Source: a virus. From it: a stretch of DNA of 40,793 nt. Where the stretch lies: IMG/VR virus record IMGVR_UViG_3300032561_000050, positions 1 through 40,793 of that record; one strand, 5' to 3'. Shown here piece after piece: positions 6,601 to 27,732 of the stretch. Positions within the stretch are counted from its first letter, which is position 1; the number at the start of each line of letters is the position of its first letter. The position numbers and the translations under genes are program-made. Under the pieces are notes generated by a model. The model was not told the DNA's origin and ran no database searches. It worked only from the letters and a program-made list of their open reading frames with translations.

Positions 6601-7788
6601 TTGCTGTTCGGAATAGCAGGCGCTGATGCAAAGCCCCGAAGCGATGGTGTAGGCCTGGTAACCCGTCAGGTTGCCGACGCCGGATGCCGGAAACAGTGTG
6701 CCGACGCCCCAGCGGGGATTGGTCAATATCCCAGCAACGAACAGGCTGGGGTCGGCCTCCAGCGGCGCGGAGGCGACCGATCCGTGGTAGAAGCCGTAGA
6801 TCTCGAAATTGTTGTTCGGGCTGTTGGGCGAATCGCCCAGGTCGAAGGCCGAGGCGGCGGCGTAGGCCAGATAGGAGTAGGTCAGGCCCCGGCTCGGCGG
6901 CTCTTGATTGCCCGAGGTGTAGCTGATGGTGATGTCGGTGCCGGCATCGGCGGCGTTGAAGGTGTAGGTCCCGCCAGAGAACAGGTACTGCCCTTGAAGG
7001 GCTGTTGAAGTCGAGGGCGCCCAGGTGATCTCCAGCGCATTTCCGGCGATATCGGGCGAGAAGGTATAAACGCCGGTGGCTAGGTTGACCGAGTACTCGT
7101 AGCCAGACGGCGTGCCGGTGACCGCGTAAAGGTCTTGATCCATGTCGGCGTCGTAGACCCCGCCGTCGGTGGCGATGGCGCTCCCGACCGCGACCTGATA
7201 GGGCGACGAGGTCGGCGCCGGCACCGACAGGGTTTGCTCCGCGCCGCTGGGCGCCACGAAGGCGTCGCCGGTCTGTGCATCGACCACACCGTAATCGACG
7301 ACAGGGGTCCCGGACCAATTGACGGTCACCTGATAGGGCGCCGACGACGGAATGGTGTGCTCTTCTGTCACCGTGGCTTGGCTAGCCAGCCAGGCGAACG
7401 GCGCTTGCGCCTGGGTGCCGTCAAACACCGTCAGCCCCAGCGCCGCCGCGTTGGTTTCGGTCTTGGCCGACCATACGGTGCCGACGCCTGCGATCGGCCC
7501 CTGGCAAAGCCCGAAGGCGAACATCGCCGAGTAGGTATAGCTGGTGGTGCCGCCTCCGCTGTTGCCGCCACCACCGCCCTTGCCACCGCCGCCACCACCA
7601 CCGCCGCCGGACGAATGGGCGGTAGCGACGAAGTTGCCGTAATCGATCAGATTCGGCGAGGCCTTGGCGGTGCCGACCACCACAGAGATGACCTTCCCGT
7701 AGGTCGATGTCTGGACGCTGATTCCGGCCGCCGCCGCCGGCTGCTGGGCCTGCGGTTGCTTGGCCTGGGCGCCGAAAAGACCGGCCAT
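3691..7788 (-). CDS. Large tail-tip / host-specificity protein with FN3-like repeats
   Basis: 1365 aa from the ATG at 7788, chosen because it shares a base with the upstream TAA (TAATG); a start at 7803 is also possible. Near residues 62-85 there is a run of almost only glycine. The N-terminal two thirds resemble the putative phage tail protein family of lambda J/GTA tip type. From roughly residue 830 there are about three fibronectin-III-like repeats (PPAIDSVTA..., PPVASVTI..., PPDVTNFAL...), then a C-terminal beta-rich receptor-type region. It follows the DUF2460, DUF2163 and NlpC/P60 genes in the order seen in gene transfer agents, so it should form the tip that contacts the cell. Confidence 0.82.
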   Translation of the reverse strand: MAGLFGAQAKQPQAQQPAAAAGISVQTSTYGKVISVVVGTAKASPNLIDYGNFVATAHSSGGGGGGGGGKGGGGGNSGGGTTSYTYSAMFAFGLCQGPIAGVGTVWSAKTETNAAALGLTVFDGTQAQAPFAWLASQATVTEEHTIPSSAPYQVTVNWSGTPVVDYGVVDAQTGDAFVAPSGAEQTLSVPAPTSSPYQVAVGSAIATDGGVYDADMDQDLYAVTGTPSGYEYSVNLATGVYTFSPDIAGNALEITWAPSTSTALQGQYLFSGGTYTFNAADAGTDITISYTSGNQEPPSRGLTYSYLAYAAASAFDLGDSPNSPNNNFEIYGFYHGSVASAPLEADPSLFVAGILTNPRWGVGTLFPASGVGNLTGYQAYTIASGLCISACYSEQQTVAQVLDDLATYTNADVAITDTLTLIPKCDQAITANGVTFTPPAGTFSLGDDDWLANNAAATTSGTGTPDPLVVNRARPDTVTNQVTLEYLNRANQYAPETVTARDVAAIRRYGLKTDKSKQAHMFANGVAARVSAQLLVQDAAAANTWQGTVGEDHIAIDIGDRGWIASAVQNVSSRYVKVTNIAEQSDCSLAITFKEILTGGGTAAAHGFASGQGSGPNYSVDPGDSAAPIIIEPPYALANDLELWIGTCGGPDWGGCQVWISTDNATFALAGSITGAARMGSLMTALPAGADPDITDTLAVDLSQSRGTLLSGTRADADSLSTLCWVNGEFVAYQTATLTATSKYQLTYLRRGAYGVPASQHLAGSPFIRLDNAVLKLTLTRDRIGQTIWVKLLSFNSFGGGMQQLSDVSATSYFISGVTPPAIDSVTAQLQANGSVKVAWVYTEAPMDLAGINILVNGAVVEAGVSGSSFTTSAAVLAPIGTYTIGVEAVNIAGLTSAVTSTSFTRSLPPVASVTITHLADGTNVVSWAYPLSPVDWASSIVTVDGAVIAAGVTGYSLATASASLRSPGTHQVGVQAVDACGNSSVATYASYTYALPPDVTNFALNPIAANAFLTWDANPAIDVAYYEIRFTPLTSGATWSGASDLVPNVAAPGTSVSVALASGTYLIRATNMDGYQSPDAALVVNTIVPVGLNFVETITESPTFAGTVSNCDVTPSGLQLASQSPLADWMNLVDVPSLTFGGALMSMSMWGNIASVPYLSENNVNGVVPSGTYTFSAANTVDLGSVFTPRLSAAMTVAGDNITSVLAGWAELGQQVTLAGATGAGWSAVMQVRTTQTATSGSPTWSAWQNLTVGDYTARGFQFRVLLTSNNPSVTPLVTALAVSFQLPSRTLSAVNVSAPAGGQAVTFSTPFYVTPAVNITANGMATGDYFTVTAKSSTGFTVQFFNAAGTGVARSFDWLASAY

Positions 7789-8243
7789 TACCGCGCCCCC
7801 CACAGGGTGAAGAAGCGCGGCTCACGATCCTTCAGCAGCTTCTTGTCAAAGGCGTCGCGCTCGGCGTTGCCCATCACCACGCCCTGGCCGGCGACCGCGT
7901 GGATCACCAGCGGCCAGTCGATGACAACGGCGCCATGGGCGTAGCAGCGGCCGACTCGCCACAGCACGAAATCTCCCGGCTGGGGCGTGGTGGTGATCTC
8001 GCGCGCCAGGCTGACAACGCGGCTGAGATAGCGTTCTTGGTCTCGGTGGAGATGCCACTGGGCCGGATAATCCTCGGGCGCAACCTCGGGGATGACGCCA
8101 GCGGCGGCATAGACGGCAGCGGGAAGATTGGCGCAATCGACGCCGCCGCCCTTGAGGCGCTGGTTGTGGTGGTAGGGTGTCCGCAGCCAGCTATAGGCCT
8201 CGGTCACCACGCGCCGCCGCGCTCTGTGTTCGATCCGCTCCAT
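7788..8243 (-). CDS. NlpC/P60-type tail-associated cell-wall peptidase
   Basis: 151 aa from the ATG at 8243. The upstream gene's TGA ends one base earlier. The catalytic cysteine is C37 in GGGVDCANL, and the histidine is probably H103 in YAHGAVVIDW (H115 is the alternative). The size fits the GTA-type putative peptidase that follows the DUF2163 protein. It is expected to cut peptide cross-links of peptidoglycan during DNA entry, carried in the tail tip. The frame is open further upstream, but those residues lack family resemblance. Confidence 0.85.
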   Translation of the reverse strand: MERIEHRARRRVVTEAYSWLRTPYHHNQRLKGGGVDCANLPAAVYAAAGVIPEVAPEDYPAQWHLHRDQERYLSRVVSLAREITTTPQPGDFVLWRVGRCYAHGAVVIDWPLVIHAVAGQGVVMGNAERDAFDKKLLKDREPRFFTLWGAR

Positions 8244-8244
8244 G

Positions 8245-9138
8245 TCAGCTTGCCGTCGAGGGCGGCGGCACGAACGGGTGCCCCCGGAAGTTGGCGAGAT
8301 TGGAGAATTTCGGGCAGCCGCCGGCATCCATGGTGCCGTCGCAACCGGGATGGAGGAGGAAAGCATCCCCGGCGCCGGGCGCCTGGGAGAACGGCGTCAT
8401 CAGGGTCAGCACCCCAGCCGCCTGGCTGCGGATGGTCCGCGACTGGCCCAACAGCACGCCCGAGGTGAACTTGATGTCGCCGACATCGAACCACCCATCC
8501 GGCTGGGCCAGACTGGCGTTGATCGCCGAGGCGCTCGACCCGGCCAGCGCCGACCCGGTGATCGCCCAGCTCGCCAGGTTGATGGCGCAGGCCGCATCGC
8601 CCAGCACGTTGAGGCATCCCGGCTGATAGACTTCGGGCGGCCACGGCTGTTGCAGGATCTCGGCGATCGAATTGACGGTGAAGGTGATCACCGTTCCGCC
8701 GGCCGGGCTGATGTCGCCGATGCGGCCGAAGAACTTGCGGACGCTCCCCGTGGACGGCAGCGGCCAGAACACCGCAGTCGAGGACATCGGGAAATAGGCG
8801 CGGCGGTATTCCATCCAGGCGCCGTCGAACAGGCCGATCTCCACCGCCTGAGTGAAGGGAATGCCCTCGACCAGACTTGAGCCCGGCAACACGCTGATCG
8901 TCAGGGTCTGGGTTCCAGTGCCGAGCGCCCAGGTGCACTGGGCGTTGTCGCCGACCAGGCCGAAATAGGGGCCCGTCCAGCCACCGCCGGGATAGACGAT
9001 TCCGTTGTCGAGCACGGAGCAATCGCCGCCGGAGTAGCGCAGCACCGTCCCGTCCGCCAGGGTGATGATATAGAGGTCGATGGCGGTGAAAACTCGCCCG
9101 GCAAGCAACGCGGCAAGGGCGGTTGAAACGGCCTTCAT
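8245..9138 (-). CDS. Tail-tip baseplate protein, DUF2163 (TIGR02218-like)
   Basis: 297 aa from the ATG at 9138, one base after the upstream TAG. The N-terminus (KAVSTALAALLAGRVFTAIDLYIITLADGT) and the cysteine-bearing C-terminal part (PGCLNVLGDAACAIN... and HPGCDGTMDAGGCPKFSN...NFRGHPF) are typical of the DUF2163 distal tail protein of GTA-like siphophages. The C-terminal HPGCD...C..FSN..NF pattern is shared with phage and GTA proteins that form the baseplate hub. It sits between DUF2460 and the peptidase, as expected. Confidence 0.85.
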   Translation of the reverse strand: MKAVSTALAALLAGRVFTAIDLYIITLADGTVLRYSGGDCSVLDNGIVYPGGGWTGPYFGLVGDNAQCTWALGTGTQTLTISVLPGSSLVEGIPFTQAVEIGLFDGAWMEYRRAYFPMSSTAVFWPLPSTGSVRKFFGRIGDISPAGGTVITFTVNSIAEILQQPWPPEVYQPGCLNVLGDAACAINLASWAITGSALAGSSASAINASLAQPDGWFDVGDIKFTSGVLLGQSRTIRSQAAGVLTLMTPFSQAPGAGDAFLLHPGCDGTMDAGGCPKFSNLANFRGHPFVPPPSTAS

Positions 9139-9140
9139 GG

Positions 9141-9740
9141 CTATTTCACCGACCGGATGGCGAGCTTGTCGGCCGAGTAGAGCGCCGTCATGAACTTCTT
9201 CAGATCGAGCTTGTCGTCCTCGAATCGGCAGGGGAAGTAGTAGCTGAAGCTGGCGACGATCGCGGCGCCGACGGCGGGGGCCGAAGCCAGCGTTACCAGG
9301 CCAGGCGTGGTCGAGCCATAGGCCGCCACCGAGAAGGATGCCGCGACGCCATTGACGGTGACCGCCGAAACCACATTGGGCGCCCACATCGGCTCGACAA
9401 AGCCACCGAAGGCCCGCACCAGCTGGAAGGCGGCGGTGACGCCGTCGCCGATGCCGATCTGCTGATTGGCGACGCTGTTGTCGTCGGGATCCTGAAGCAG
9501 CCAGGTGCCCTGCTGTCCAGCGGCGGCATTGAAGAAGCCCACCATCTGCTGCCATTCCTGGTACGCAGTGCCGCTGCGCAGGAACTCATAGGCCAGCACC
9601 CAGTGATGGATCGGATAGGTCCAATTGCCGATCCGGGTTTCCTTACCCGACCGCGCCGTCTGAACGGTGGTCGACCATTCCTCGGTGCGGCCGACCGGAA
9701 AGGTCAGCCCCGGCAGCGCGGGAAGAATCGGCGTTGTCAT
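9141..9740 (-). CDS. Distal tail protein, DUF2460 (TIGR02217-like)
   Basis: 199 aa. The ATG at 9740 overlaps the stop of the tape-measure gene (ATGA). Family marks are the N-terminal LPGLTFPVGRTEEWSTTVQ, the FRSG/W-rich middle (AYQEWQQMVGFFNAAAGQQGTWLLQDPDDN) and the C-terminal FEDDKLDLKKF. DUF2460 proteins form the distal tail ring that joins tube and baseplate in GTA-like particles. First of four consecutive tip genes. Confidence 0.88.
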   Translation of the reverse strand: MTTPILPALPGLTFPVGRTEEWSTTVQTARSGKETRIGNWTYPIHHWVLAYEFLRSGTAYQEWQQMVGFFNAAAGQQGTWLLQDPDDNSVANQQIGIGDGVTAAFQLVRAFGGFVEPMWAPNVVSAVTVNGVAASFSVAAYGSTTPGLVTLASAPAVGAAIVASFSYYFPCRFEDDKLDLKKFMTALYSADKLAIRSVK

Positions 9741-12583
9741 CGGCCAATCCCCCCGATCTTGGCGCCCAATCCGATCTGGCGATTGAGCGCGGTCACCAGC
9801 GCCGAGCCGCTGCGCTGGAATAGGTTGGCGACCCCGGCCGGATCGACCGCCTGGATGTTGTTGACGATGGTGACGCCCCCGCTCGGCGCCGCTGTCGATG
9901 CCGTCTGCGCCGGCGCGGTGCCGACCGAGCCGGAATTGCTGTTGGCGGCCGGTGCCATCCCTCCGGGCAGTCCCAGCGCCGGCATCGCGTGGATGAAATT
10001 GCGCAAGGGGTTGGCGAAGCTGGCCGGCAGGATGCTTTCATCCTTATGGGCTTCGATCAGCATGCCGTCATAGGGCACCCGCTCCATGCCACCGGCGGCG
10101 GAGGCCATCGGTAGATAGAGCATGGCGTCGGCGTAGGTTTCGCCCCCGACCTCTGGCGCCATGGCCCAGCCGACGAAGGGGATGCAGGCGACCGATGACA
10201 TGGCCGCCGCTCCGGCGATGGCGGCATAGGCCGGGATGGTTCCGGCCGCCTGGATCTTGGCGGCCATGATCGACGCGGCGGCGGCGGTGCCGTCGGCGGT
10301 GTCGCGGGCGGCGGACCCGGCGACGGTGGCGCCGGTCTTGCCAGTCTCCAGGCCCAGCCAGTCGGCCAGCATCTGGCCGATGCGACCGAAAAAGCCGACG
10401 CTGCCCGAGGCGTCGGCGGCATCGCGGGCGGCGGCGCCAGAGCGGGTGGCGGCAGTGCGTGCCGCCTCGCTGGCGGCGGTGGTGGTGGTCTTGGTGTGTT
10501 CGGACAGCAGCCACGCCAACATGCCGCCCTGGGCGGCGCTCTTGTCTGCCTGCAGCCCGACCGCGTTGGTGATCAGCTTATGGCCCAGCCACTTGGTGTC
10601 GGCGGCGATCTCCTCGGCCACCACGCTCTGGGCCATGCGGGCGAGCGCCTGTTGCCGGGTTTGCGTGCCCATCACCAGGCCCTGGATCGAGGTGTCCACC
10701 GCCCGCTCGATCGGCGACAGCATCCGCTCCCACGCGGCGGCCGAATCCTGGGCGGCCTTCTGCTCGGCTTTGACTTCGTCGGCCGACAGCTTGGCCATGT
10801 CGGCCTTGTGCTGCTCGGCCAGGATGCGGCGCTTTTGATAGGTGCGCTCCCAAGCGGAATCGCCCTGGTCGAGGGTCGCAAGTTCCTTGGACAGGATGGA
10901 ATCCTCGGAGCGGAACACCGATTCCTGCAACGTCCGGATCTGCTGGATGCGTTCCTCGGCCGACATCCGCCCGGCCGCCACCTCTTCGTCCAGCGCGTCC
11001 TTCTTGGCCGCCAACGTGATGCGCGCGATCTGAAGATCGCCGTCGGCGACGACGCGGGCGCGCTCCTGGCGCTCCTTGTCCGCCTGCTCTTCCTCGCGCT
11101 CTTCCTCCTTTTTGAGGGCGATGCGGTCGCGGGCAATCTGCTTTTCGATCTCGACGGCGTCGCGGCTACCCTGGCGCACCAGCTGCTTCTTCGCCTCCCA
11201 GAAGGAAATATCCCCCTTCAGCTCTTCGGCTCGACCGGCATCGGACGCGGCATGCATGTCCTCCAACTGCGCCCGCCACACCTGCATCTGCGAGGCGTCA
11301 CCCTTGGGCTTTCCCAGATCGGCCAGTTGCGCTTCGGCCGTAGCGATGCGCCCGGCAAGAAGCTGCGCGTCGGCGCCGCTCGACTTCGCCTGTTCCGCCT
11401 TCATCTCGGCGATGCGCCGGTTGAGGTCGGCCCGCTTTTCCTCCAGATCGGCCAGGCCCTTGGTCGATTCCATCAGCTTGCGATGCTGCTCGTACTCCTG
11501 GACCTTTCCCTGATCCGGTGCTTGATCGGCATAATCGGTCAGCTTCGGCGCCTTGGCGTTGGGATCGTAATCCATCGTCCCATAGGCGGCCGACGCCGCA
11601 CGGTGGTATTTCTCCAAGGCCTGGATGTAGGGGCCGAAGCGGGCGGTCACCGCCGTAACGAAGACTTCCTGGGCCTTCAGCTCGTCATTTTCCTTCTTGG
11701 CGTCGTCAATGGCCCTCAATTGATCGACCGACAAGAGGTTATGGGCCAGGCCGAAGGACCGCATCGCCTCGGTTCCCCCGGAGACCGTCTTGGCCAACTG
11801 CCCGACCACCTCGACCATTTCCTTGGCGTCGGTCTTGCCGAGCGATTCCGCCCACGCGGTCCCCAGGTCGAGGATGCTCTGCCGGGTCTGTTTGGTCGCC
11901 CTGGGGATCTTCTCGACCTCGGCCACGGCCGCCCGCGCCGCTTCCGACGAAATCCAGAAGGTTTCCTTCAAATCCGCGACCATGCCCTTGAGTTCGGCGG
12001 TCGAGGCCTCACCCCCGCGCCCCAGCGCCGCCATGTTCATGCGGATCGCCGTAATCTCGCTATTGGCGGCCGCAAGATGGCTGATCAGCTCGTAAGCGCC
12101 AAGCCCCAGGGCGGCGAAGGCGCCGACGGTGCCCTTGGTGGCCGGCGATACGCCGCCCATGCGCTCGGCCAGCACCATCAGCGAGCCGGGAATGCGGGAG
12201 AAATTGCCCGAGATCGCTTCGTGCCCCAGTACGATCAGCTCGCGGCGCGCCCCGGCGGTGGCCAGGGAAAGCCGCCCGGCGCCGGCCGCGCCTTCATTGC
12301 CCACATGCTTGAAGGCGGCGGTGATACGGCCGACGGCCTCTTCACCTTCGCTCAGGGTGATCCAACCGGCCTTGAGCTGGCGGTTGACCTCGCCGATGGC
12401 GGCGGCCTGGTCACTGAATTGCTTGCGCAGGCCGTCGGCGGTGCCGGCAAAGCGCTGGAAGCTGTCGTCGCCGCTGGCGACCGCGCTCTTCAGGTCGGCG
12501 AAGCTGCGGGTGCCGGTGCCCAGCGCCGCCTGCAATTCGCTGGCGTCCGCGCCAAGCCGGATATAGACGCCTTCATCGGCCAT
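9737..12583 (-). CDS. Tail tape measure protein
   Basis: 948 aa, the longest helical protein in the tail cluster. It starts MADEGVYIRLGADASELQAALG, a common opening of tape-measure proteins. A charged coiled-coil stretch (about 370-620, rich in Glu, Lys, Arg and Ala) precedes an alanine-rich, partly hydrophobic segment (about 690-840). Its length sets tail length; 948 residues suggest a tail of medium siphovirus size (inference from about 0.15 nm per residue). It follows the frameshifted chaperone pair and precedes the distal tail protein, the canonical siphovirus order. Confidence 0.9.
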   Translation of the reverse strand: MADEGVYIRLGADASELQAALGTGTRSFADLKSAVASGDDSFQRFAGTADGLRKQFSDQAAAIGEVNRQLKAGWITLSEGEEAVGRITAAFKHVGNEGAAGAGRLSLATAGARRELIVLGHEAISGNFSRIPGSLMVLAERMGGVSPATKGTVGAFAALGLGAYELISHLAAANSEITAIRMNMAALGRGGEASTAELKGMVADLKETFWISSEAARAAVAEVEKIPRATKQTRQSILDLGTAWAESLGKTDAKEMVEVVGQLAKTVSGGTEAMRSFGLAHNLLSVDQLRAIDDAKKENDELKAQEVFVTAVTARFGPYIQALEKYHRAASAAYGTMDYDPNAKAPKLTDYADQAPDQGKVQEYEQHRKLMESTKGLADLEEKRADLNRRIAEMKAEQAKSSGADAQLLAGRIATAEAQLADLGKPKGDASQMQVWRAQLEDMHAASDAGRAEELKGDISFWEAKKQLVRQGSRDAVEIEKQIARDRIALKKEEEREEEQADKERQERARVVADGDLQIARITLAAKKDALDEEVAAGRMSAEERIQQIRTLQESVFRSEDSILSKELATLDQGDSAWERTYQKRRILAEQHKADMAKLSADEVKAEQKAAQDSAAAWERMLSPIERAVDTSIQGLVMGTQTRQQALARMAQSVVAEEIAADTKWLGHKLITNAVGLQADKSAAQGGMLAWLLSEHTKTTTTAASEAARTAATRSGAAARDAADASGSVGFFGRIGQMLADWLGLETGKTGATVAGSAARDTADGTAAAASIMAAKIQAAGTIPAYAAIAGAAAMSSVACIPFVGWAMAPEVGGETYADAMLYLPMASAAGGMERVPYDGMLIEAHKDESILPASFANPLRNFIHAMPALGLPGGMAPAANSNSGSVGTAPAQTASTAAPSGGVTIVNNIQAVDPAGVANLFQRSGSALVTALNRQIGLGAKIGGIGR

Positions 12584-16262: not shown

Positions 16263-17756
16263 TTAGCCGTTGGCGATGTTGGTGATGATGCCGAAGGCGG
16301 GCGGGAAGTAGTTCTGCAGCACGCCGTCGAAGTAGACGCCGTACTCATACTTGCGCCGCGTCACCGGCCACTCGACCTGGTAATAGTCCCGACGGCAGCG
16401 CATCTGCTTCAGGTTGGCGACGCCCGACAGCGGATAAGGAAGCTCGTCGGTGTCGAACAGAATGGTGCCGGCCGGCAGGTTGGGGTGCAGCATCAGCGGG
16501 ATCGCCCGCGCCCCGTCCATGGTGAACTTGTTGAGGTAGTCGCGGACCAAATCACCGCCCTTGATGTTGCCCTGCTCGACGTTGATGACGAAGCGCTGGG
16601 CGGCGTTGGAATTGCCGGACAGGATCTTCTTGGTGATGTTCATCTGCTCCTGGGACGACACCCAGATCACCGACGGCGACAGGCGGTAATTGTCCCAGAA
16701 CGACTTCAGCGCGGCGTCGATCTCGACGATGCCGCCGGCGCCGTCCGAGGTCAGCGGCGTGCCGACACCGGCGGTACCGGTCGCCTGGGCCGAGAAGTAG
16801 CCGGAGCCGGACTTGACCACCTGGGTCAGCAGGCCGTCGAAGATCAGCGAGTTGCGCGAGTTGTCGCCCGACAGGCTGGAGGCGGTCTGGCTGCCGGCGG
16901 CGGCGGCGGTGATCGCCACCGAGTTGATGGTGGTGATGGCGCCCAGCACCTCGGAGCCGGCCACACCCCAGTACCAGGCATACGCGAAGGCGCCCGCGAC
17001 GGTGGCGACAGTGGCGGTGAGCGAGCCGGTCGAGCCGGTGGTGGTGCCGGTGGCGTTGTCGGACTTGGTCGCCGAGCCGCCGCCGTAGGAATCGGTCGAT
17101 GAATCGGCATTGGTCCGGGTCACCGATCCCCTGATGCCGTTGGCCACCGAGGCGGTCATGTAACCGTCCAGCGTCAACGCGACGCAGATCACGCTCCAGG
17201 TATTGGCGGCAAGGGCGCCACCGGTATTGGACGCGACCACGGTCGGCGTCGGGGTGGTGCCAAGCGCCAGGCTGGAATTGCCGCCCAGCATGACCTTTTC
17301 TTCGCCGATCATCAGCGAGCGGAGCAAACCCTGGACGGCGCGGGCGCGGACATCGTCATAGCCTTCGCCGGCATAGTCCGCCTCGAACGTCACGTAGTCT
17401 TCGAAGCCCAGCCCACGATAGGCGGCATTGTATTCGCTGACCGTGGTGGCGATGACGCCGCCGCGATTGCCTTCCGAGACGCCGGCGGCCAGGGCATTGA
17501 TGTTGATGCCGGTGATCGCCTTCCAATTGGCCTGGGTGCCGCGACCGGCGCCGACGCGGGGCGTCTTATTGCGGATCGGGGTCAGGACCGGGTAAAGCGT
17601 CTTGGCCGGCGCTTCCAGGTCGTAATAGGTCAGGCCCGTGGTCGGGCTGCCCGACTGGGTGAAGGCCTTGATCAGGGCGTCGTCATCCTTCAGCGGGTTG
17701 GTGAAGGACGCCTTGATCAATTCCATGGTACGGGCGGTAAGAGCGGCTTGGTTCAT
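16263..17756 (-). CDS. Major capsid protein (HK97-fold type)
   Basis: 497 aa. An N-terminal helical arm (TARTMELIKASFTNP...) is followed by YDLEAPAKTLYPVLTPIRNKTPRVGAGRGTQANWKAITGIN, typical of capsid proteins of transposable siphophages. The C-terminal part (FDTDELPYPLSGVANLKQMRCRRDYYQVEWPVTRRKYEYGVYFDGVLQNYFP) is also typical. About residues 160-310 form a Thr/Ser/Gly/Ala-rich insertion, perhaps an Ig-like surface domain. The protease/scaffold gene lies 17 bases upstream, as expected. Confidence 0.88.
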   Translation of the reverse strand: MNQAALTARTMELIKASFTNPLKDDDALIKAFTQSGSPTTGLTYYDLEAPAKTLYPVLTPIRNKTPRVGAGRGTQANWKAITGININALAAGVSEGNRGGVIATTVSEYNAAYRGLGFEDYVTFEADYAGEGYDDVRARAVQGLLRSLMIGEEKVMLGGNSSLALGTTPTPTVVASNTGGALAANTWSVICVALTLDGYMTASVANGIRGSVTRTNADSSTDSYGGGSATKSDNATGTTTGSTGSLTATVATVAGAFAYAWYWGVAGSEVLGAITTINSVAITAAAAGSQTASSLSGDNSRNSLIFDGLLTQVVKSGSGYFSAQATGTAGVGTPLTSDGAGGIVEIDAALKSFWDNYRLSPSVIWVSSQEQMNITKKILSGNSNAAQRFVINVEQGNIKGGDLVRDYLNKFTMDGARAIPLMLHPNLPAGTILFDTDELPYPLSGVANLKQMRCRRDYYQVEWPVTRRKYEYGVYFDGVLQNYFPPAFGIITNIANG

Positions 17757-17773: not shown

Positions 17774-19048
17774 TCAGGAACGGGAAATTTCGGTGGTTTC
17801 GGCGAGCTTGATCAGGGCGCGGCGCTTTTCTTCGCCCTGCGGCATCGCCTGGACTTTGGCCAGGCGGCCTTCAAAGGAACCGTCGGTGGCGTCGGAGGAC
17901 GCGGCCTGGTGGGCGCCGCCGACGTCGTCGGCCTTCTCCAGCGCTTTCAGGTGAGGACCGCCGGGTGCCGGCAGCTTTTCCAGCTCATCGACGCGCTTGG
18001 TGAGGGTGTCGCGCTCGCCGACTAAGCTCTGGACTTTGGCCAGCACCGCTTCGGCGTCGCAGCCCAGAGTCTTTGCCAGCGGCGCCAGCAGATCGGTGTC
18101 GAGCTTGGCCAGCTTTCCGGTGGCGTCGGCCAGATCGCCCTGCACCTTGGCGAGGTCGCCGGTGCCCTCGGCCTTCAGCGCGGGGCCGGCACATTCGGCG
18201 CCCATGCCGACCGAGTGATCGTGGATGGCCTGCAGGCGGTCCTTGTCGGCCCTTGAATGCCGTGCCCCAGCCTTTGCCAGGTCGCCGGTTCCGTCGGCCT
18301 GTTCCATGGTGTCCACCACGACCGGCGCAGGAAGCTTTTCCACCAAGGCGCTGAGAGCGGCCAGTTCCTCCGACGCCTCTTCCTTCGCCATGTCGGTGAG
18401 GATGGCGACGCCGGTGGCCAGCCAGTCGCGCAGGCGGCCGGGGATCGGCGAGCCGTCCTGTTCGATGTTCGCTTCGTAGGCCGCGCTTTCCGCCAGCGAT
18501 GACAGCGAGCTGATCAGGTCGGCCAAACGGCTGACGCTGTAGAGACCCTTCCTCAGATCGTCGCCCGAGACGGCCTTGACCGCGATGTCCGCCGAACTGC
18601 CGTCCGCCTTGATCATGGTGAAGGTCGCGGTCGGGATCATGCCGCGATCGACCAGCGAGATTTCCGATGGCCGCGCGGTATAGCGGACGTGCTGGCCGTC
18701 TTTCCAGCGCTTGACGTACTTTCCGCCCGGAGAAAAGCCGGTATAGACCCCGGCCTCGACCTTGGCCCACTCGGCGTCATCGACGATGTGGGCGCAGATG
18801 TCGATCCGCTTGGCGGCGTCGTCGAAGGAGATGTCAACCAGCTTGCCAGCGGCGATCAGCTGATGCATCGAGCGGACGTTGCCGAGGTTGCGCCCGTCCG
18901 AGGCCTTCTTCATCTCGCCCGACCAGGTCTCGAAATTCGGCTTGCTGGTGTCGTAATCGAAGATCTCGCCGATGCGATCCGGCGTCTCGTCGATGCTGGC
19001 ATAGACCAGCCGCTGGGCGGCGTCGGCTTTGCGAAGGGTGAAATGCAC
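17774..19048 (-). CDS. Prohead protease (XkdF-like) with C-terminal scaffold region
   Basis: 424 aa, GTG start at 19048. The N-terminal 150 residues look like the XkdF/prohead protease fold; likely catalytic residues are H62 (VRSMHQLI) and S106 (VYTGFSPGGKY), with ARPSEISLVDRG next. The C-terminal 250 residues are charged, helical and repetitive (ADATGKLAKLDTDLLAPLAK, then LTKRVDELEKL), typical of an internal scaffold removed after assembly. This matches the Mu I gene, which encodes protease plus scaffold. The start is unusual: its GGAGG ribosome-binding site lies in the 3' arm of an 8-bp hairpin (19056-19080). A dyad lies 66 bp upstream. Confidence 0.82.
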   Translation of the reverse strand: MHFTLRKADAAQRLVYASIDETPDRIGEIFDYDTSKPNFETWSGEMKKASDGRNLGNVRSMHQLIAAGKLVDISFDDAAKRIDICAHIVDDAEWAKVEAGVYTGFSPGGKYVKRWKDGQHVRYTARPSEISLVDRGMIPTATFTMIKADGSSADIAVKAVSGDDLRKGLYSVSRLADLISSLSSLAESAAYEANIEQDGSPIPGRLRDWLATGVAILTDMAKEEASEELAALSALVEKLPAPVVVDTMEQADGTGDLAKAGARHSRADKDRLQAIHDHSVGMGAECAGPALKAEGTGDLAKVQGDLADATGKLAKLDTDLLAPLAKTLGCDAEAVLAKVQSLVGERDTLTKRVDELEKLPAPGGPHLKALEKADDVGGAHQAASSDATDGSFEGRLAKVQAMPQGEEKRRALIKLAETTEISRS

Positions 19049-19109: not shown

Positions 19110-19129
19110 CGGAGGACATTTGTCCGCCG
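19110..19129 (-). promoter_or_regulatory. Candidate late activator site (PI-like promoter)
   Basis: Core GGACATTTGTCC (19114-19125) is a perfect dyad with a 2-base TT centre, flanked by near-symmetric CGG/CCG. The core begins 66 bp upstream of the GTG at 19048. A second copy of the core plus GCCG lies at the same 66-bp distance from the endolysin start. Mu C protein binds dyads at late promoters, including one before gene I. No clear -35 box was seen, as in activator-dependent promoters. Confidence 0.6.
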
Positions 19130-19318
19130 TCTTCGACCGGGTCAGTTTTTGGGGGAGACAGCCGGGATCATGCATCGCCCCGAGGTCTGACGCAAGAGAA
19201 GCCCTCCAGCGGCCGTAGGAGCGTTCAATTTCGCGTTCAATAAATCCCCGGCTACACCGGGCGCCTAAAACAGCCTTCCTGGCTTCTCGGAGCGCCTTGG
19301 ACGATTTTGCGGCACCCG

Positions 19319-19347
19319 TTGATTTTGCCCTCCGCCCCCCCTACAAT
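19319..19347 (+). promoter_or_regulatory. Sigma-70-type promoter of the candidate ncRNA
   Basis: TTGATT at 19319-19324 and TACAAT at 19342-19347, separated by exactly 17 bases. It is the best consensus promoter I found in the window. Start of transcription is expected near 19352-19356, right at the 5' arm of the RNA's closing stem. Confidence 0.65.
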
Positions 19348-19351
19348 GAGG

Positions 19352-19536
19352 GTGTTCGCGTGGTGGGAAAATGCAGGGCTTGACCCTGTGGTTTGTTGGA
19401 CGGCTCGTCCAGACCCCTTGGCTCACGCGCCACCCGGTGACGGGTGGTTCAGGTAGCCGGTGCAAGCCGGTGAAGTAGATGCCGGTAGTAAGGTTCCGGC
19501 CGCGAACACAAGCCCCGCTTCGGCGGGGCTTTCATT
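19352..19536 (+). ncRNA. Candidate structured small RNA in the head-gene gap
   Basis: About 180 nt with no open frame of note. The 5' GTGTTCGCG (19352-19360) pairs perfectly with CGCGAACAC (19501-19509), closing the whole molecule. Inside are hairpins CAGGG/CCCTG (19374-19388), TGGACG/CGTCCA (19397-19411) and CCACCCG-GTGA-CGGGTGG (19430-19447, GNRA-type loop). Three GCCGGT units (19456, 19466, 19481) follow, any of which could pair with CCGGC at 19496-19500. A rho-independent terminator comes right after the closing stem, and the promoter ends only a few bases before it. It runs against the late operon. I do not recognise the family; 6S RNA and riboswitch classes were considered without a convincing match. 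Confidence 0.65.
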
Positions 19537-19540
19537 TTGC
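19511..19540 (+). terminator. Rho-independent terminator, UUCG loop
   Basis: GCCCCGC-TTCG-GCGGGGC at 19512-19529, followed by TTTCATTTT. The stable 7-bp GC stem with a UUCG tetraloop ends the plus-strand RNA. The minus-strand reading also forms the stem and is followed by TTGTGTT. It lies next to the stop of the portal-MuF gene (19532), so it may stop transcription in both directions. Confidence 0.8.
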
Positions 19541-22378
19541 CTTCTGGATCTTGCCCGCCGTCAGGCGATGGGCTACCGCCTCCCGCGTTGCGATGAAGCC
19601 CGTGCGACCGCGATAGACGCCCTCACCATCTCGGTCGATCGATACCGGCAGAACCGCCATGCGTCCGGTGCCGTCTCCAACGGGGTAATAGAGCGCGGTA
19701 TTGAGGCCATCCCCCATCTCACTCCGCGTCAGCAACCCAACATAAACCGGCTTGTCGATGCCCTTGGCCAACGTCCGCGCAACCAGCGCCAACTCGTCGC
19801 GATGCCGGTCATCGGCGTGAGCGGTGGCGGGCAATTTCATCGTGATCGCCCCAGCCTGAAGCTTGCGCCCAAGCGTCCGACCTACGACGTCGTGGGGCAT
19901 GGCGCCCAGATGGGCGATCTTCGGCGGACGCCGACCACCGCCTTCGCCTCGGGCCTGGCGTCGCTCGCCCTTGGCCCTCTTGCCCGGCTTGAGGACGAAG
20001 CGCCCCCGCGCGCCGCGCGGATGGTCGCCCTCGCTCCAGCCCTTGGCCAGGTCAAAAGGGCGGCTTGCGCGAGGCCCCTCCACCTTATCGGCGTCGTCAT
20101 CGACTTCGGCCACCAGATCGCAGCCGCAACGGGGATGGGCCGGGGCCGCCTGGTGACCGGACGGAAAATCCTCGTCCAGTCCGATCGCCCCCGCCCTGGC
20201 GTTCTCGTTGCAGGCCGGGCAGTGATTCTCTTCCGGCGCCTCGATCCACCGCTTCTTGAGCTTGACGCCGAAGGATTCCACCGCCGTCCGCCAGCCGATC
20301 AGATTGCCCATGATGTCGGCGCTGGCCAGCTCGTGGGTGGCGATCAGGGTTGCCCGATCCGCCGAGAAAGCGTGGCTCTCCATGATGGCATCGCGGAGGC
20401 GCTGGACGCTCCAGCCGTTGGCCTCGGCCTCGGCAATGATGTCGCGCAGCGCCTTGCGGGTGGTGTTGGTCAAGCCGCTGACTAGGTCGGCGGCATGGGA
20501 TTGCGCCCAGCCGATTGCGCGGGGATTGGCCAGGGCGGTGGCGTCGGCCGAGGTGATCCCGGCGACCTTCAGACCCTGACCGACGCCATCGACCGCGACC
20601 TCACCCAGAACCTGGGCGGTCTTGGCCACCTCTTGCGCCCAGACCGCTTCATCGACGGCGTCGCCGGCGATCTGCGCGGCGACCGTGGTTTCGGCGCTCG
20701 GCGAAGCGGCCTCGGAATCCGCCGTCACCGCATCCTTGGCCGCCGCCGCAGCGCCCGCATTCTCCAGATCATCACCGGCCGCCTTGACCATCTTGCTCCG
20801 CGCGGCGGCGACCTGGTCGGCGACCCGCTTGGCTTCGGCGGCCAGGAATCGGGTCCATTGCCGACGCACTTTCTTGAGGCGCTTACCGACGAAAGGGCGG
20901 GTGTGATCCACCTCCCGAGCGGCGTCGGCTTTGCCGAGCTGGGCGGTGCCATCGTCTTCGCCCTCGGTGCCGTCGCCCGAATCGTCCTCGGTACCGATGT
21001 CCGAGATGCCATTGTGGCCGAGCATAGCGGGCGGAGGTTCCGGCGGCTTTACCACATCCTCCAGGCGCACGGCGCCGGCGGCGGTGTAGATCAGCGCCAC
21101 GTCGCCGCCAGCGATGGCTTCCTCTCCGTCTTCGGCCCGCCATTCGTTGAGGGTCTTGGCACCGGCCCTGACCTTGATGTCGTTGACCTGGGCGTCCACC
21201 AGCGGATCGGTGTCCTTGGTTTCCTGCCAGACGAATTCCAGGTCCGCGTAACCGAAGCATTGGCGCAACACGCGGTCGATCACCGCCTTGACCCACTTCT
21301 TCAGCGGCGCCAGGCCTTCTTTCATCGCCTGCACCGCCGACGTCTCCGATTCTGCCCGGCTCATCTGCTTGATGAAGGCCTGATTCGAGACGTTGAAGGC
21401 GTAGCACATGATTCTGGCCAGCCATTCGTCGTATTCGTCCTTCAGCGCGGCGTCCTTGATCTGCACGAATGATTTGGCGATCGAGCCGGGAACCCAGCGC
21501 ACCTTGCGGCGCTGCGCTAGGTTGTCGGTCAACAGCGCGTCCCAATAGGCTTGGTATTGCGCGATTTGCTCGGGCGTCCAGCTATCTGGCACGCCGGCCA
21601 GAGCGTCCGGTACCGTGCCCTCGGTATAATAGTCGAGCTGGTGCATCTGCCGGCGCAGCGCGATGTTGACCGTCATCACCACCTGTTCGACCGGACTCAT
21701 CCCGTAGACCCGGTTGGTCCGCAGGTTGCGCGGCAGATAGAGCAGCTGGCCTCGGGTGTAATCGCTGGCTGGAAGGCCCTTCAAGACCTGTTGATAGGCC
21801 GGATCGGGTGGGATCGGCGTGCGGCCGCCGCCGTCCAGCACGCGCTTGATCGTGGCCCCATCGACCGGCTCCAGCGCGTAAAGACGATTGCCTCTGTCAA
21901 GCCGCGGATACAGGGTGGCGGCGTCGATCACCAGGTTGTCCTCGACCAGCATGCGCAGCCACGCATCCCAGTCGTTCTCCTTATCGGGCATCGCCAGGAA
22001 ATCGGACACCTCGGCAATGCGGGGATCGTCGATCTTCTTTTTTTTTGGGTCCTTGGGCTGGATCGCCCAGCTTTCCTTGGCCAGCTGATCCTTCCGGGTT
22101 TCGATCACCAGCCGCATCAGGTCGTAATTGTCGGCCAGATTGCGCAGCATGGAAAAGCTGATCGGCTCGCCCTGTCGCGGCTGGATGGTCGCGTTGAACC
22201 CGACCGGATAATCAAACTGACGACCGGCGGTATTGGGCGGCGCCACCGGCTCCAGCGGCTTCAGCGGCCCGAACCAGGCATCCGGCCCTCGGCCGGTCAC
22301 CACGTACTTCACGCCCTGGACGACTCGGGCGACCAGGCCGGTGGGGACGGATTCACCCATCTGTTCGCGATTGCTCAT
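19532..22378 (-). CDS. Portal protein fused to MuF-type head morphogenesis domain
   Basis: 948 aa. Residues 1-450 are portal-like (PVGFNATIQPRQGEPISFSMLR, TLYPRLDRGNRLYALEPVDGATIK, YGMSPVEQVVMTVNIALRRQ), corresponding to Mu gp29. An acidic linker (459-480) and a helical stretch lead to a MuF/gp30 domain (about 640-760) with TLIATHELASADIMG, CPAC (720-723) and HPRCGC (748-753), probably zinc-binding. GDHPRGARGRF (784-794) follows, then a separate C-terminal domain (about 824-948) of unknown role. In Mu the two functions are separate genes, so this is a fusion. A run of nine A bases (22038-22046) lies within the codons for DPKKKK. Confidence 0.82.
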   Translation of the reverse strand: MSNREQMGESVPTGLVARVVQGVKYVVTGRGPDAWFGPLKPLEPVAPPNTAGRQFDYPVGFNATIQPRQGEPISFSMLRNLADNYDLMRLVIETRKDQLAKESWAIQPKDPKKKKIDDPRIAEVSDFLAMPDKENDWDAWLRMLVEDNLVIDAATLYPRLDRGNRLYALEPVDGATIKRVLDGGGRTPIPPDPAYQQVLKGLPASDYTRGQLLYLPRNLRTNRVYGMSPVEQVVMTVNIALRRQMHQLDYYTEGTVPDALAGVPDSWTPEQIAQYQAYWDALLTDNLAQRRKVRWVPGSIAKSFVQIKDAALKDEYDEWLARIMCYAFNVSNQAFIKQMSRAESETSAVQAMKEGLAPLKKWVKAVIDRVLRQCFGYADLEFVWQETKDTDPLVDAQVNDIKVRAGAKTLNEWRAEDGEEAIAGGDVALIYTAAGAVRLEDVVKPPEPPPAMLGHNGISDIGTEDDSGDGTEGEDDGTAQLGKADAAREVDHTRPFVGKRLKKVRRQWTRFLAAEAKRVADQVAAARSKMVKAAGDDLENAGAAAAAKDAVTADSEAASPSAETTVAAQIAGDAVDEAVWAQEVAKTAQVLGEVAVDGVGQGLKVAGITSADATALANPRAIGWAQSHAADLVSGLTNTTRKALRDIIAEAEANGWSVQRLRDAIMESHAFSADRATLIATHELASADIMGNLIGWRTAVESFGVKLKKRWIEAPEENHCPACNENARAGAIGLDEDFPSGHQAAPAHPRCGCDLVAEVDDDADKVEGPRASRPFDLAKGWSEGDHPRGARGRFVLKPGKRAKGERRQARGEGGGRRPPKIAHLGAMPHDVVGRTLGRKLQAGAITMKLPATAHADDRHRDELALVARTLAKGIDKPVYVGLLTRSEMGDGLNTALYYPVGDGTGRMAVLPVSIDRDGEGVYRGRTGFIATREAVAHRLTAGKIQKAK

Positions 22379-22688: not shown

Positions 22689-23987
22689 CTATTTTCCCTT
22701 CTCTTTTTGCGCCTCAACCTGGCGCCGGTAATATCCGATGATGCCCGGCTCGGCCGAGGCGCCGGCCAGGCCCAGGAAAGCGGCCCAGGTCCGGTCGGCA
22801 TGGCCATCGGCATCGCGGTCGGCGACCAGACGGGGATTGCCGGTCTCGCTCATCACCCGCTTCAGCTTGTGGAGATCGGCCCGCAGCACCGGGTTGCCGG
22901 CGGGGATTCGGACTTTGCAATCCTCGAACCTTTGCTTGGACAATGTCGCCACGTTGAGGCGGATGTTGGAGGTCAGAACCACGCCCTCGACGCGATAGCC
23001 GTAGCGAGCTTGAGCGTCCTCGACCGGCTTCTCGCCCATGCCGGTCTGATCCATCACCAGGCGCTCGACCTGGTAGCGGGTCATTAGCCGGGCAATCTCG
23101 GCATCCTGGGCGGCGAAGCTGGCGCCGCGCAGCTCGACGATCTCGCGGGTCCAGAACACATCGCCGACGCGCTCCCACACCCAGGCCACCCACAGATCGC
23201 CGCGCCGGGCGATGTCGTTACCGATGATGCAGGGGCCGCCCTGGTATAGTTCCGGCTTCCCGGCATCGCCGTCCTCGACGGCGGTGATGACCTCGTAGCT
23301 CAACCAGGCCGTCGCCTCGTCCAGGAACTCCAACTCGTATTCCTGGCGCCACGCCTCCTCGTCGCCGAGGGCCGATCGCAGCTCGGTGATGTCGCGCTCC
23401 AGCCCCTCGGCCACCGCCTGGTGGATGTCCACCCGATGCCGGCTCCAGGCGCATCCCTCCTGGGTCCAAAGCTCGTAGAACTTGTTGCTCTTGCCGTTGG
23501 GGGTCGAGGTGATCACCAGCCGCAGCCGCCCCCGCGACACCACCGGGAACAACGCCCGCCAGATCCCGCGCGAATCCTTGTGAAAGGCGAACTCGTCGAG
23601 ATAGACGTTGCGCGAAAAGCCGCGCGCCGTGTCCGGATTGGCCGGTAAAGCGGTGCATTTCGATCCATTGGGAAGCACCACCTCGGTGGCGCGATAGACG
23701 GTCTCGCCGATGCGGATATCGGATTCACCGAGATCTTCGAAGGCTTGGCCGTAGGCGCGAAGGTGAAGCTTGACGCCTTCGTTCATCGCCTCCATCGCCT
23801 GACGTTCGCCTCGGCTGAGAATCAGCCACGGTGACCGCCGGCCCTGGGCCTCGGCTTCGACCATGTCATCGACGATGTCGAGCGTGCTGGTGAAGGTCTT
23901 GCCGGTCTGCCGCGCGAACATGCCGATCTTGAACCGGCTCTTATCGGCCAGCCAGCGGCACTGATAACCGTGCAGCAGCGCATCCAT
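22689..23987 (-). CDS. Terminase large subunit (Mu gp28-like)
   Basis: 432 aa from the ATG at 23987, which overlaps the TGA of the small subunit (TGATG). ATPase: Walker A-like FARQTGKT (24-31) and Walker B VYLDEF (128-133), with coupling motif ITSTPNGKSNKFYELW after it. Nuclease: acidic residues D258 (IIGNDIARRGD), D313 (LVMDQTGMG) and D398 (DGHADRTWAAFL) in RNase-H-like order. It pumps DNA into the prohead and cuts at headful, with flanking host DNA expected as in Mu. The frame is open upstream of 23987, but there it is antisense-like sequence overlapping the small subunit. Confidence 0.92.
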   Translation of the reverse strand: MDALLHGYQCRWLADKSRFKIGMFARQTGKTFTSTLDIVDDMVEAEAQGRRSPWLILSRGERQAMEAMNEGVKLHLRAYGQAFEDLGESDIRIGETVYRATEVVLPNGSKCTALPANPDTARGFSRNVYLDEFAFHKDSRGIWRALFPVVSRGRLRLVITSTPNGKSNKFYELWTQEGCAWSRHRVDIHQAVAEGLERDITELRSALGDEEAWRQEYELEFLDEATAWLSYEVITAVEDGDAGKPELYQGGPCIIGNDIARRGDLWVAWVWERVGDVFWTREIVELRGASFAAQDAEIARLMTRYQVERLVMDQTGMGEKPVEDAQARYGYRVEGVVLTSNIRLNVATLSKQRFEDCKVRIPAGNPVLRADLHKLKRVMSETGNPRLVADRDADGHADRTWAAFLGLAGASAEPGIIGYYRRQVEAQKEKGK

Positions 23988-24619
23988 CACGCCTCGCCGG
24001 TGTACAGCTTGCGGACGCGCTCCAGCGCCTCCTCGGGCGTCATGGCCGTCTTCTTGGCCTCGCCCTTGACCTGATCGACCTTCTTCGCCAATTCGGCCTG
24101 CATCGCCTTGCGCAGATTGAGGACGACATCGGCGTCGGCCTTCTTGGCGCTGGCCAGATCCTTCAACGAGCGGGCCAGGAACATCACCGATTCGGCGTCG
24201 AAGGTGACGGAGGCGGCTTCGCCGTCCTCGCCGGCGCCGGACGCCAGCACCAAGTCGGTGACGATCGAATGCATCAGCTCGATGTTGAGCCGCGCGGTGC
24301 GGTCCTCGGGGGCGTCGCCCAGCTTCTTGACCAACGCCTCGGCGACGGTGCGCGAGCGCTGCAGCCGCTCGGCCAGCGCGTCCAATCCCTTGAAGTGACG
24401 CCCCAGGCCGGATCGGCTGGGCAGATCGTCGGTGCCGATCGCCACCGACTCGGCGATCGTCGCCAGCTCGGGCGGCAGCATCGAGCGCCGTCCGGATGCC
24501 AGATCGTCGAGCCAGCCCTTGATCTGATCGAGCGTATAGCGCTGCGACAGCCACAATTCGGCTAGGCCTTCCTTGAGGATGCCCGGCAAGCGATCGGCCT
24601 TGGACGGTTTGCCGGCCAT
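23987..24619 (-). CDS. Terminase small subunit, DUF3486 (Mu gp27-like)
   Basis: 210 aa. N-terminal HTH region (KADRLPGILKEGLAELWLSQRYTLDQIKGWL) ends with PSRSGLGRHFKGLDALAERL, the DUF3486 hallmark. The rest is helical and charged. It recognises packaging sites and binds the large subunit. Directly upstream of and overlapping the large subunit gene. Confidence 0.85.
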   Translation of the reverse strand: MAGKPSKADRLPGILKEGLAELWLSQRYTLDQIKGWLDDLASGRRSMLPPELATIAESVAIGTDDLPSRSGLGRHFKGLDALAERLQRSRTVAEALVKKLGDAPEDRTARLNIELMHSIVTDLVLASGAGEDGEAASVTFDAESVMFLARSLKDLASAKKADADVVLNLRKAMQAELAKKVDQVKGEAKKTAMTPEEALERVRKLYTGEA

Positions 24620-27712: not shown

Positions 27713-27732
27713 GGGGGGACAAATGTCCGCCG
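27713..27732 (-). promoter_or_regulatory. Candidate late activator site (Plys-like promoter)
   Basis: Core GGACAAATGTCC (27717-27728) followed by GCCG is a perfect dyad with an AA centre. It begins 66 bp upstream of the GTG at 27651, the same distance as the copy before the protease gene. It lies between the Mor/C-type gene and the endolysin gene, as Plys does in Mu. No -35 consensus is evident. Confidence 0.6.

Follow-up and report, generated by a model that had tools for sequence, protein, structure and literature searches.

A skipping-rope-like RNA gene convergent with a portal-MuF nuclease-like domain in a Mu-like phage: a candidate immunity RNA

An RNA gene between the portal-MuF and protease genes

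The window analysed here is the whole viral record IMGVR_UViG_3300032561_000050 (40,793 b) and is the genome of a Mu-like phage. In its head-gene cluster, the stop of a portal-MuF gene (19532) and the start of a protease gene (19048) are separated by a gap of 483 b, which contains an RNA gene on the plus strand; a plausible small protein gene was looked for in this gap and none was found. Gene order is the basis of the protease and capsid labels; a Pfam search of both ORFs gave no match. The features of the locus are the following:

34741-36834, minus strand: Mu-type transposase
22689-24554, minus strand: terminase
3691-7803, minus strand: GTA-like tail protein
19532-22378, minus strand: portal-MuF protein of 948 aa (Phage_portal, PF04860) with a nuclease-like C-terminal domain, convergent with the RNA gene
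19535-19933, minus strand: C-terminal domain of portal-MuF, a PBECR3 homologue and predicted RNase (blastp, hhalign)
17774-19048, minus strand: protease (label from gene order)
16263-17756, minus strand: capsid (label from gene order)
19319-19347, plus strand: sigma-70-like promoter TTGATT-17-TACAAT (TTGATT 19319-19324, TACAAT 19342-19347; 9/12 consensus match)
19352-19509, plus strand: skipping-rope-like RNA, full unit (match to the B510-only model at 19355-19506; covariation)
19352-19360 / 19501-19509, plus strand: P1 closing stem of 9 bp, GTGTTCGCG / CGCGAACAC
19363-19426, plus strand: P0, GTGGG (19363-19367) / CTCAC (19422-19426), pairs kept in six of six homologues
19373-19389 and 19397-19411, plus strand: window-specific two-hairpin insertion in the P0 loop, absent from B510
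19416-19493, plus strand: possible pseudoknot of the P0 loop with the P4 loop, CCTT (19416-19419) / AAGG (19490-19493)
19430-19447, plus strand: P2 hairpin of 7 bp with GNRA tetraloop GUGA (19437-19440); in B510, 5 bp and a GUAA loop
19457-19470, plus strand: P3 hairpin CCGG(TGCAAG)CCGG, with a G-C to C-G compensatory change relative to B510
19471-19480, plus strand: conserved single-stranded motif TGAAGTAGAT, the GAGAU motif of skipping-rope
19481-19500, plus strand: P4 hairpin GCCGG(TAGTAAGGTT)CCGGC, with double-sided changes in 4/6 pairs
19510-19539, plus strand: intrinsic terminator AAGCCCCGC-TTCG-GCGGGGCTT + TCATTTTG, abutting the portal-MuF stop codon

The first-pass annotation had described a promoter-like pair, a closing stem of 9 bp, hairpins including one with a GNRA loop, and a terminator, all of which lie where it placed them; the terminator hairpin (19510-19531) is followed by TTTCATTTT. 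Individually, these features remain within chance, and the single-sequence case is weak. Thus, 8 promoters of 9/12 quality occur in the window against 4.7 in shuffles, inverted repeats of 9 bp spaced by 100-260 nt number 92 against 68, and the folding z of the RNA is -2.7, or -3.75 when the terminator is included, compared with -4.7 on the opposite strand. A coding ORF in the RNA region was rejected, since single-base indels relative to B510 disrupt the frame downstream. We consider the RNA gene real because its structure is conserved in homologues: five of them show the closing stem, P0, P2, P3, P4, and the terminator behind the stem again, with compensatory changes, which bears out the proposal of a self-contained structured RNA gene opposite the late genes, with a promoter and terminator of its own.

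The gap also holds a late-promoter-like block on the minus strand (19114-19241) upstream of the protease gene, at the position of Mu P_I. It comprises a direct repeat TTGAACGC-GAAA-TTGAACGC (19222-19241), TTGCGT-17-CATGAT (19195-19167), and the palindrome GGACAnnTGTCC. By eye, similar blocks are present in L105, L013, L002, L095, and L008. TTNAACG repeats occur 8 times in the window against 1 expected, and GACANNTGTC recurs at 27718.

The RNA is related to the skipping-rope class

A plasmid search by blastn returned one match to the RNA, on plasmid pAB510a of Azospirillum sp. B510 (75.8% over 91 b, E 3e-3). The alignment of the two RNAs scores 46.1, compared with a shuffle maximum of 25.8, and the closing stem and terminator of the B510 RNA occupy positions equivalent to those in the window. 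Moreover, a covariance model built from the B510 RNA alone matches the window at 19355-19506 with 55.7 bits (E 2.6e-11). Among 82 Azospirillaceae genomes searched by blastn, B510 is the sole convincing full match, and the RNA is therefore sporadic. The B510 model also finds a third RNA in Azospirillum G700 (29.9 bits, E 0.005), in which the closing stem, every hairpin, and the terminator are legible by eye; its weak matches in L337-L344 lie inside ORFs, look like chance, and were set aside. A joint window and B510 model further matches an RNA in Sinorhizobium (28.5 bits, E 1.6e-6) as well as those of G700 and Azospirillum argentinense. By eye, -35/-10-like pairs also precede the G700 and Sinorhizobium RNAs.

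These intermediates connect the window RNA to a known class. The joint model scores L350, L351, and L336 at 28.5, 26.3, and 21.7 bits, where the Rfam skipping-rope model (RF02924; gathering threshold 36.7 bits) scores 47.5, 47.5, and 40.2, and both models mark the same positions in these three loci and in L349. The Rfam score of the G700 RNA is 40.2 bits. Homology of the window RNA to accepted RF02924 members through intermediates is thereby established, and P1, P0, and P4 of skipping-rope are found in the right order and with covariation. Because the joint model finds the Rfam skipping-rope positions, we assign the window RNA, by sequence comparison, to a divergent member of skipping-rope or a sister branch and not to a new class. 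The first-pass annotation had recognised no known class; the Rfam scan of the window RNA is indeed empty, but the comparative assignment overturns the wider statement.

A cut-off relaxed to E 10 over 168 b still gives no RF02924 match to the window RNA, and Rfam, tRNA, and tmRNA scans of it matched no family. Direct Rfam scans of the window and BLAST against phages recovered terminator hairpins only, exact or gapped core patterns searched in viral contigs gave only coincidental matches, and a model of the window RNA by itself had no match in Alphaproteobacteria. The housekeeping RNAs that might have explained the locus (6S, tmRNA, RNase P, and tRNA) were sought by Rfam and ARAGORN and none matched. 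Readings as a retron (no reverse transcriptase is adjacent here), as 6S, as tmRNA, or as a phage antisense C4-type RNA were dropped.

Covariation of the stems in homologues, suggested as a check in the earlier annotation, is observed in an alignment of six sequences. There, 96.5% of pair cells are standard and 14 of 26 pairs show double-sided changes, counts that are biased towards the structure to which the alignment was fitted; slid controls with equal bias give only 2-4 double-sided pairs. The covariation score was matched by 0 of 500 shuffles. The comparative structure also lends no support to a triple GCCGGT repeat acting as a switch: it assigns these blocks to P3 (CCGG/CCGG) and to the 5' strand of P4 (GCCGG/CCGGC), and riboswitch-like switching was dropped.

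The window RNA and skipping-rope have in common the P1 closing stem, an (A/U)G linker, P0 (GUNRG/CUNAC), a variable middle hairpin, the A-rich GAGAU motif, P4, and a terminator behind; a pseudoknot between the P0 and P4 loops is a possible further likeness. The pseudoknot appears in the skipping-rope entry of Rfam 14 (PMC7779021), and in viral skipping-rope RNAs a P0-loop GGC accompanies a P4-loop GYC in 39 of 39 cases. By inspection, CCUU/AAGG in the window and CCUC/GAGG in B510 may form the equivalent pairing, with a compensatory change. The shared setting is phages and plasmids. In contrast to skipping-rope, the window RNA is missed by the Rfam model, has UG instead of the AG linker, and carries an extra P3, a GAAGUAGAU motif one base longer, and the insertion of ~45 nt in the P0 loop. 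The TGAAGTAGAT motif is identical in B510 except for its first base and reads AAGAGAU in G700, A. argentinense, Sinorhizobium, and the Rfam consensus.

Among close relatives of the window, L002, L008, L011, L013, L036, and L095 show no skipping-rope match at the Rfam cut-off. The portal-protease gaps of L002, L008, L011, L013, L095, and L105 have the late-promoter block in common and lack the RNA.

A PBECR3-type domain and the linkage of skipping-rope to PBECR genes

The G700 RNA is convergent (3'-to-3') with a 140-aa gene that Pfam identifies as PBECR3 (E 1e-12), and the C-terminus of the window portal-MuF matches this protein by blastp (E 1e-7). An hhalign comparison with ten PBECR3-type proteins gives 93% (E 2.5e-7). 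Homology to accepted PBECR3 proteins spans the whole window domain, and the alignments retain both invariant histidines, residues 854 and 859 (codons 19817-19819 and 19802-19804). The isolated domain matches no Pfam family and stays below the gathering score of 30 bits for PBECR3 (PF18812); a comparison of PDB folds with an AlphaFold model of the MuF C-terminus, itself mediocre (pLDDT 71), was uninformative. We refer to the domain as a PBECR3-type predicted nuclease. PBECR is a predicted RNase domain commonly fused to MuF and portal proteins (PMC5512222). Since the C-termini in relatives L008 and L011 are PBECR3- and PBECR1-like, the domain can be placed in the MuF toxin repertoire of temperate phages (PMC5576092, PMC5512222). 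The window protein shows the fusion of portal/MuF with a toxin-like domain which, together with an immunity element behind it, a candidate role here for the RNA, marks MuF polymorphic toxins.

The linkage between RNA and nuclease genes extends well beyond the window. A tblastn search with the G700 nuclease found plasmid homologues in A. argentinense, Sinorhizobium, Bacillus, and Fusobacterium. In all eight PBECR2/3 plasmid loci examined (eight of nine tblastn records), a skipping-rope RNA lies just beyond the toxin 3' end; seven of these RNAs (L350-L353, L417-L419) exceed the Rfam cut-off, and that of L349 is below it (30.9 vs 36.7 bits, E 6e-4). Together with G700, this amounts to nine of nine PBECR2/3 loci examined outside the window.

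In phages, tblastn with PBECR queries found nothing. A pattern built from the RNA core alone yielded 62 viral loci, 41 of them non-identical and with the RNA architecture kept. Within the 410 kb of these 41 loci, an iterated HMM detects 13 PBECR-like ORFs, 12 of which end at most 125 nt from the RNA; each of these 12 faces it with its 3' end, eight in tandem and four convergently. Under uniform placement the binomial P is ~1e-16, conditional on RNA and PBECR sharing a contig and with loci, some of them related, counted as independent. The same HMM detects no PBECR gene beside 29 of the 41 RNAs, and B510 has the RNA without a PBECR gene. PBECR is possibly not the sole partner, because two skipping-rope RNAs follow other genes (domains by eye): that of L377 (near 10745, oriented) lies directly behind Abi_2/AbiF-like ORFs, and that of L384 (near 6048, oriented) lies behind a reverse-transcriptase-like gene.

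Several further arrangements were noted. In Bacillus pTA1060-type plasmids, a PBECR2 gene is followed by the skipping-rope RNA and, ~95 nt on, by the Bacillus-plasmid RNA (RF01691), so that two orphan RNA classes adjoin (L352, 2399-2468 and 2562-2617; also L417 and L419). In L381, where a solo PBECR3 gene already accompanies the skipping-rope RNA, a 2743-aa ORF with a PBECR-like stretch (4344-12572) starts ~840 nt from that RNA. The G700 contig with the RNA also bears a Tn3-family transposase, an integrase, a phage lysozyme, and, ~4.7 kb from the RNA, a HEPN_AbiU2 gene (L346 4858-5649, E 3.5e-22).

A proposed immunity RNA against the portal-MuF nuclease

The first-pass annotation had remarked on the placement beside head genes. 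The RNA gene does lie in the head cluster, but this position is better explained by the neighbouring MuF C-terminal nuclease domain. We think it reasonably probable that the RNA at 19352-19509 (plus strand), a divergent skipping-rope RNA, acts as antitoxin or immunity RNA of the portal-MuF PBECR3-type nuclease. The toxin would be produced late and probably carried in the virion. The RNA, having its own opposite-strand promoter, could be transcribed in the lysogen as well as soon after infection; it may fold into a compact, P1-closed, pseudoknotted form that binds and blocks the nuclease in the manner of type III RNA antitoxins. The RNA family, its structure, and its linkage to nuclease genes are shown by the comparisons above; expression, binding, neutralisation, and virion delivery are inferred. 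Protection would then extend to the lysogen and, after the onset of phage transcription, to the cell just infected, and solo phage RNAs would confer immunity against toxins of other elements.

We favour this reading because the toxin domain sits on a head protein and the RNA has, on the opposite strand, a promoter of its own, and because the RNA occupies the place usual for a MuF immunity gene, with AbiF/RCd22 and ToxIN as precedents. For MuF toxins, the immunity element is expected immediately downstream (PMC5576092). In the window protein, as in the MuF polymorphic toxins (Jamet 2017, PMC5576092) and PBECR domains (Iyer 2017, PMC5512222) of temperate phages, a nuclease-like C-terminal domain sits on MuF/portal; an immunity protein is expected downstream, whereas the window has an RNA gene there. 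The sporadic occurrence of the RNA among relatives of the window fits toxin-swapping. We count against the antitoxin reading that 29 of 41 phage RNAs have no detected PBECR gene and B510 has the RNA without one, and that six close relatives give no skipping-rope match at the Rfam cut-off, although L008 and L011 among them have PBECR-like C-termini. Further, the nuclease domain is missed by Pfam and by PDB fold comparison, its catalysis being predicted, and a single RNA unit 3' of the toxin differs from the upstream repeat array of classical type III systems.

In type III systems (ToxIN, CptIN, TenpIN/AbiQ), the antitoxin is a structured, pseudoknotted RNA that binds the RNase toxin directly and so neutralises it, which is the likeness we propose. 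There, a repeat-array RNA lies upstream of and is co-transcribed with the toxin; in the window, one RNA unit with its own promoter lies instead 3' of the toxin gene (in the family, convergent or tandem), and the toxin is a PBECR-type domain rather than ToxN. We therefore do not class the pair as a classical type III system, and regard it as type III-like in its putative working only. Another precedent is RCd22, a phage ncRNA of a C. difficile prophage that binds and neutralises AbiF (PMC12373285). There too a prophage toxin has a dedicated ncRNA, but the protein family and RNA motif are others, and RCd22 lies upstream of the toxin with two repeats.

A physical partnership would equally arise if the RNA were a substrate, cofactor, or guide that the PBECR nuclease binds or cuts in its action. 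The linkage suits any physical partner, and ToxN, which processes its own RNA antitoxin, shows that substrate and inhibitor can overlap (PMC12373285); a separate promoter opposite a late toxin gene and solo RNAs without enzyme suit protection better, and we regard this role as unlikely. Also rather improbable is a free-standing phage anti-defence RNA that would divert host RNases or type III toxins as a decoy and meets PBECR genes in shared accessory cargo slots. The 29 phage RNAs without a PBECR neighbour agree with it, but a general cargo effect would fix neither one end nor a short distance, and each close PBECR-like ORF has its 3' end within 125 nt, with the RNA present in nine of nine PBECR loci. 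The convergent orientation, the terminator abutting the stop codon, and the late-promoter-like block in the gap might instead suggest that the RNA acts in cis, as an antisense transcript or as a terminator insulating or tuning the portal-MuF 3' end and the protease operon's late promoter; with structure and motifs kept across unrelated settings (plasmids, Azospirillum, Sinorhizobium, Bacillus, Fusobacterium), both tandem and convergent, this is very improbable. Chance structure in non-coding DNA without an RNA product, which would accord with the weak single-sequence statistics and the absence of the RNA in most near relatives, is refuted by the 55.7-bit match to an independent model and the strong covariation, and retains a negligible probability.

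Whether the immunity role holds for skipping-rope at large, as RNA antitoxins of PBECR-family RNases, is in our estimate an even question. The class would then represent a second type III-like architecture, a single pseudoknotted RNA at the toxin 3' end, providing also immunity to virion-carried MuF toxins, with solo phage RNAs guarding against the toxins of rivals. Skipping-rope was reportedly first described by Weinberg et al. in 2017. In the open-access literature searched, two RNA papers name skipping-rope, neither with a function, and no paper there draws the link to PBECR. For PBECR domains, an RNase function was predicted in 2017 (PMC5512222), and the link would give PBECR and skipping-rope each a partner. 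If true, phage virion toxins could be countered by an immunity made of RNA instead of protein, toxin-antitoxin pairs of a type III-like kind would reach a new toxin family, and immunity elements would have been overlooked where annotation seeks only small proteins behind MuF toxins.

In the portal-protease gap of L008, the nearest relative (8763-9272, minus strand), a promoter-like pair TTGATT-17-TATGAT runs antisense to the late genes. A stem-closed hairpin cluster without a skipping-rope match lies there behind the PBECR3 gene and is possibly a different immunity RNA.
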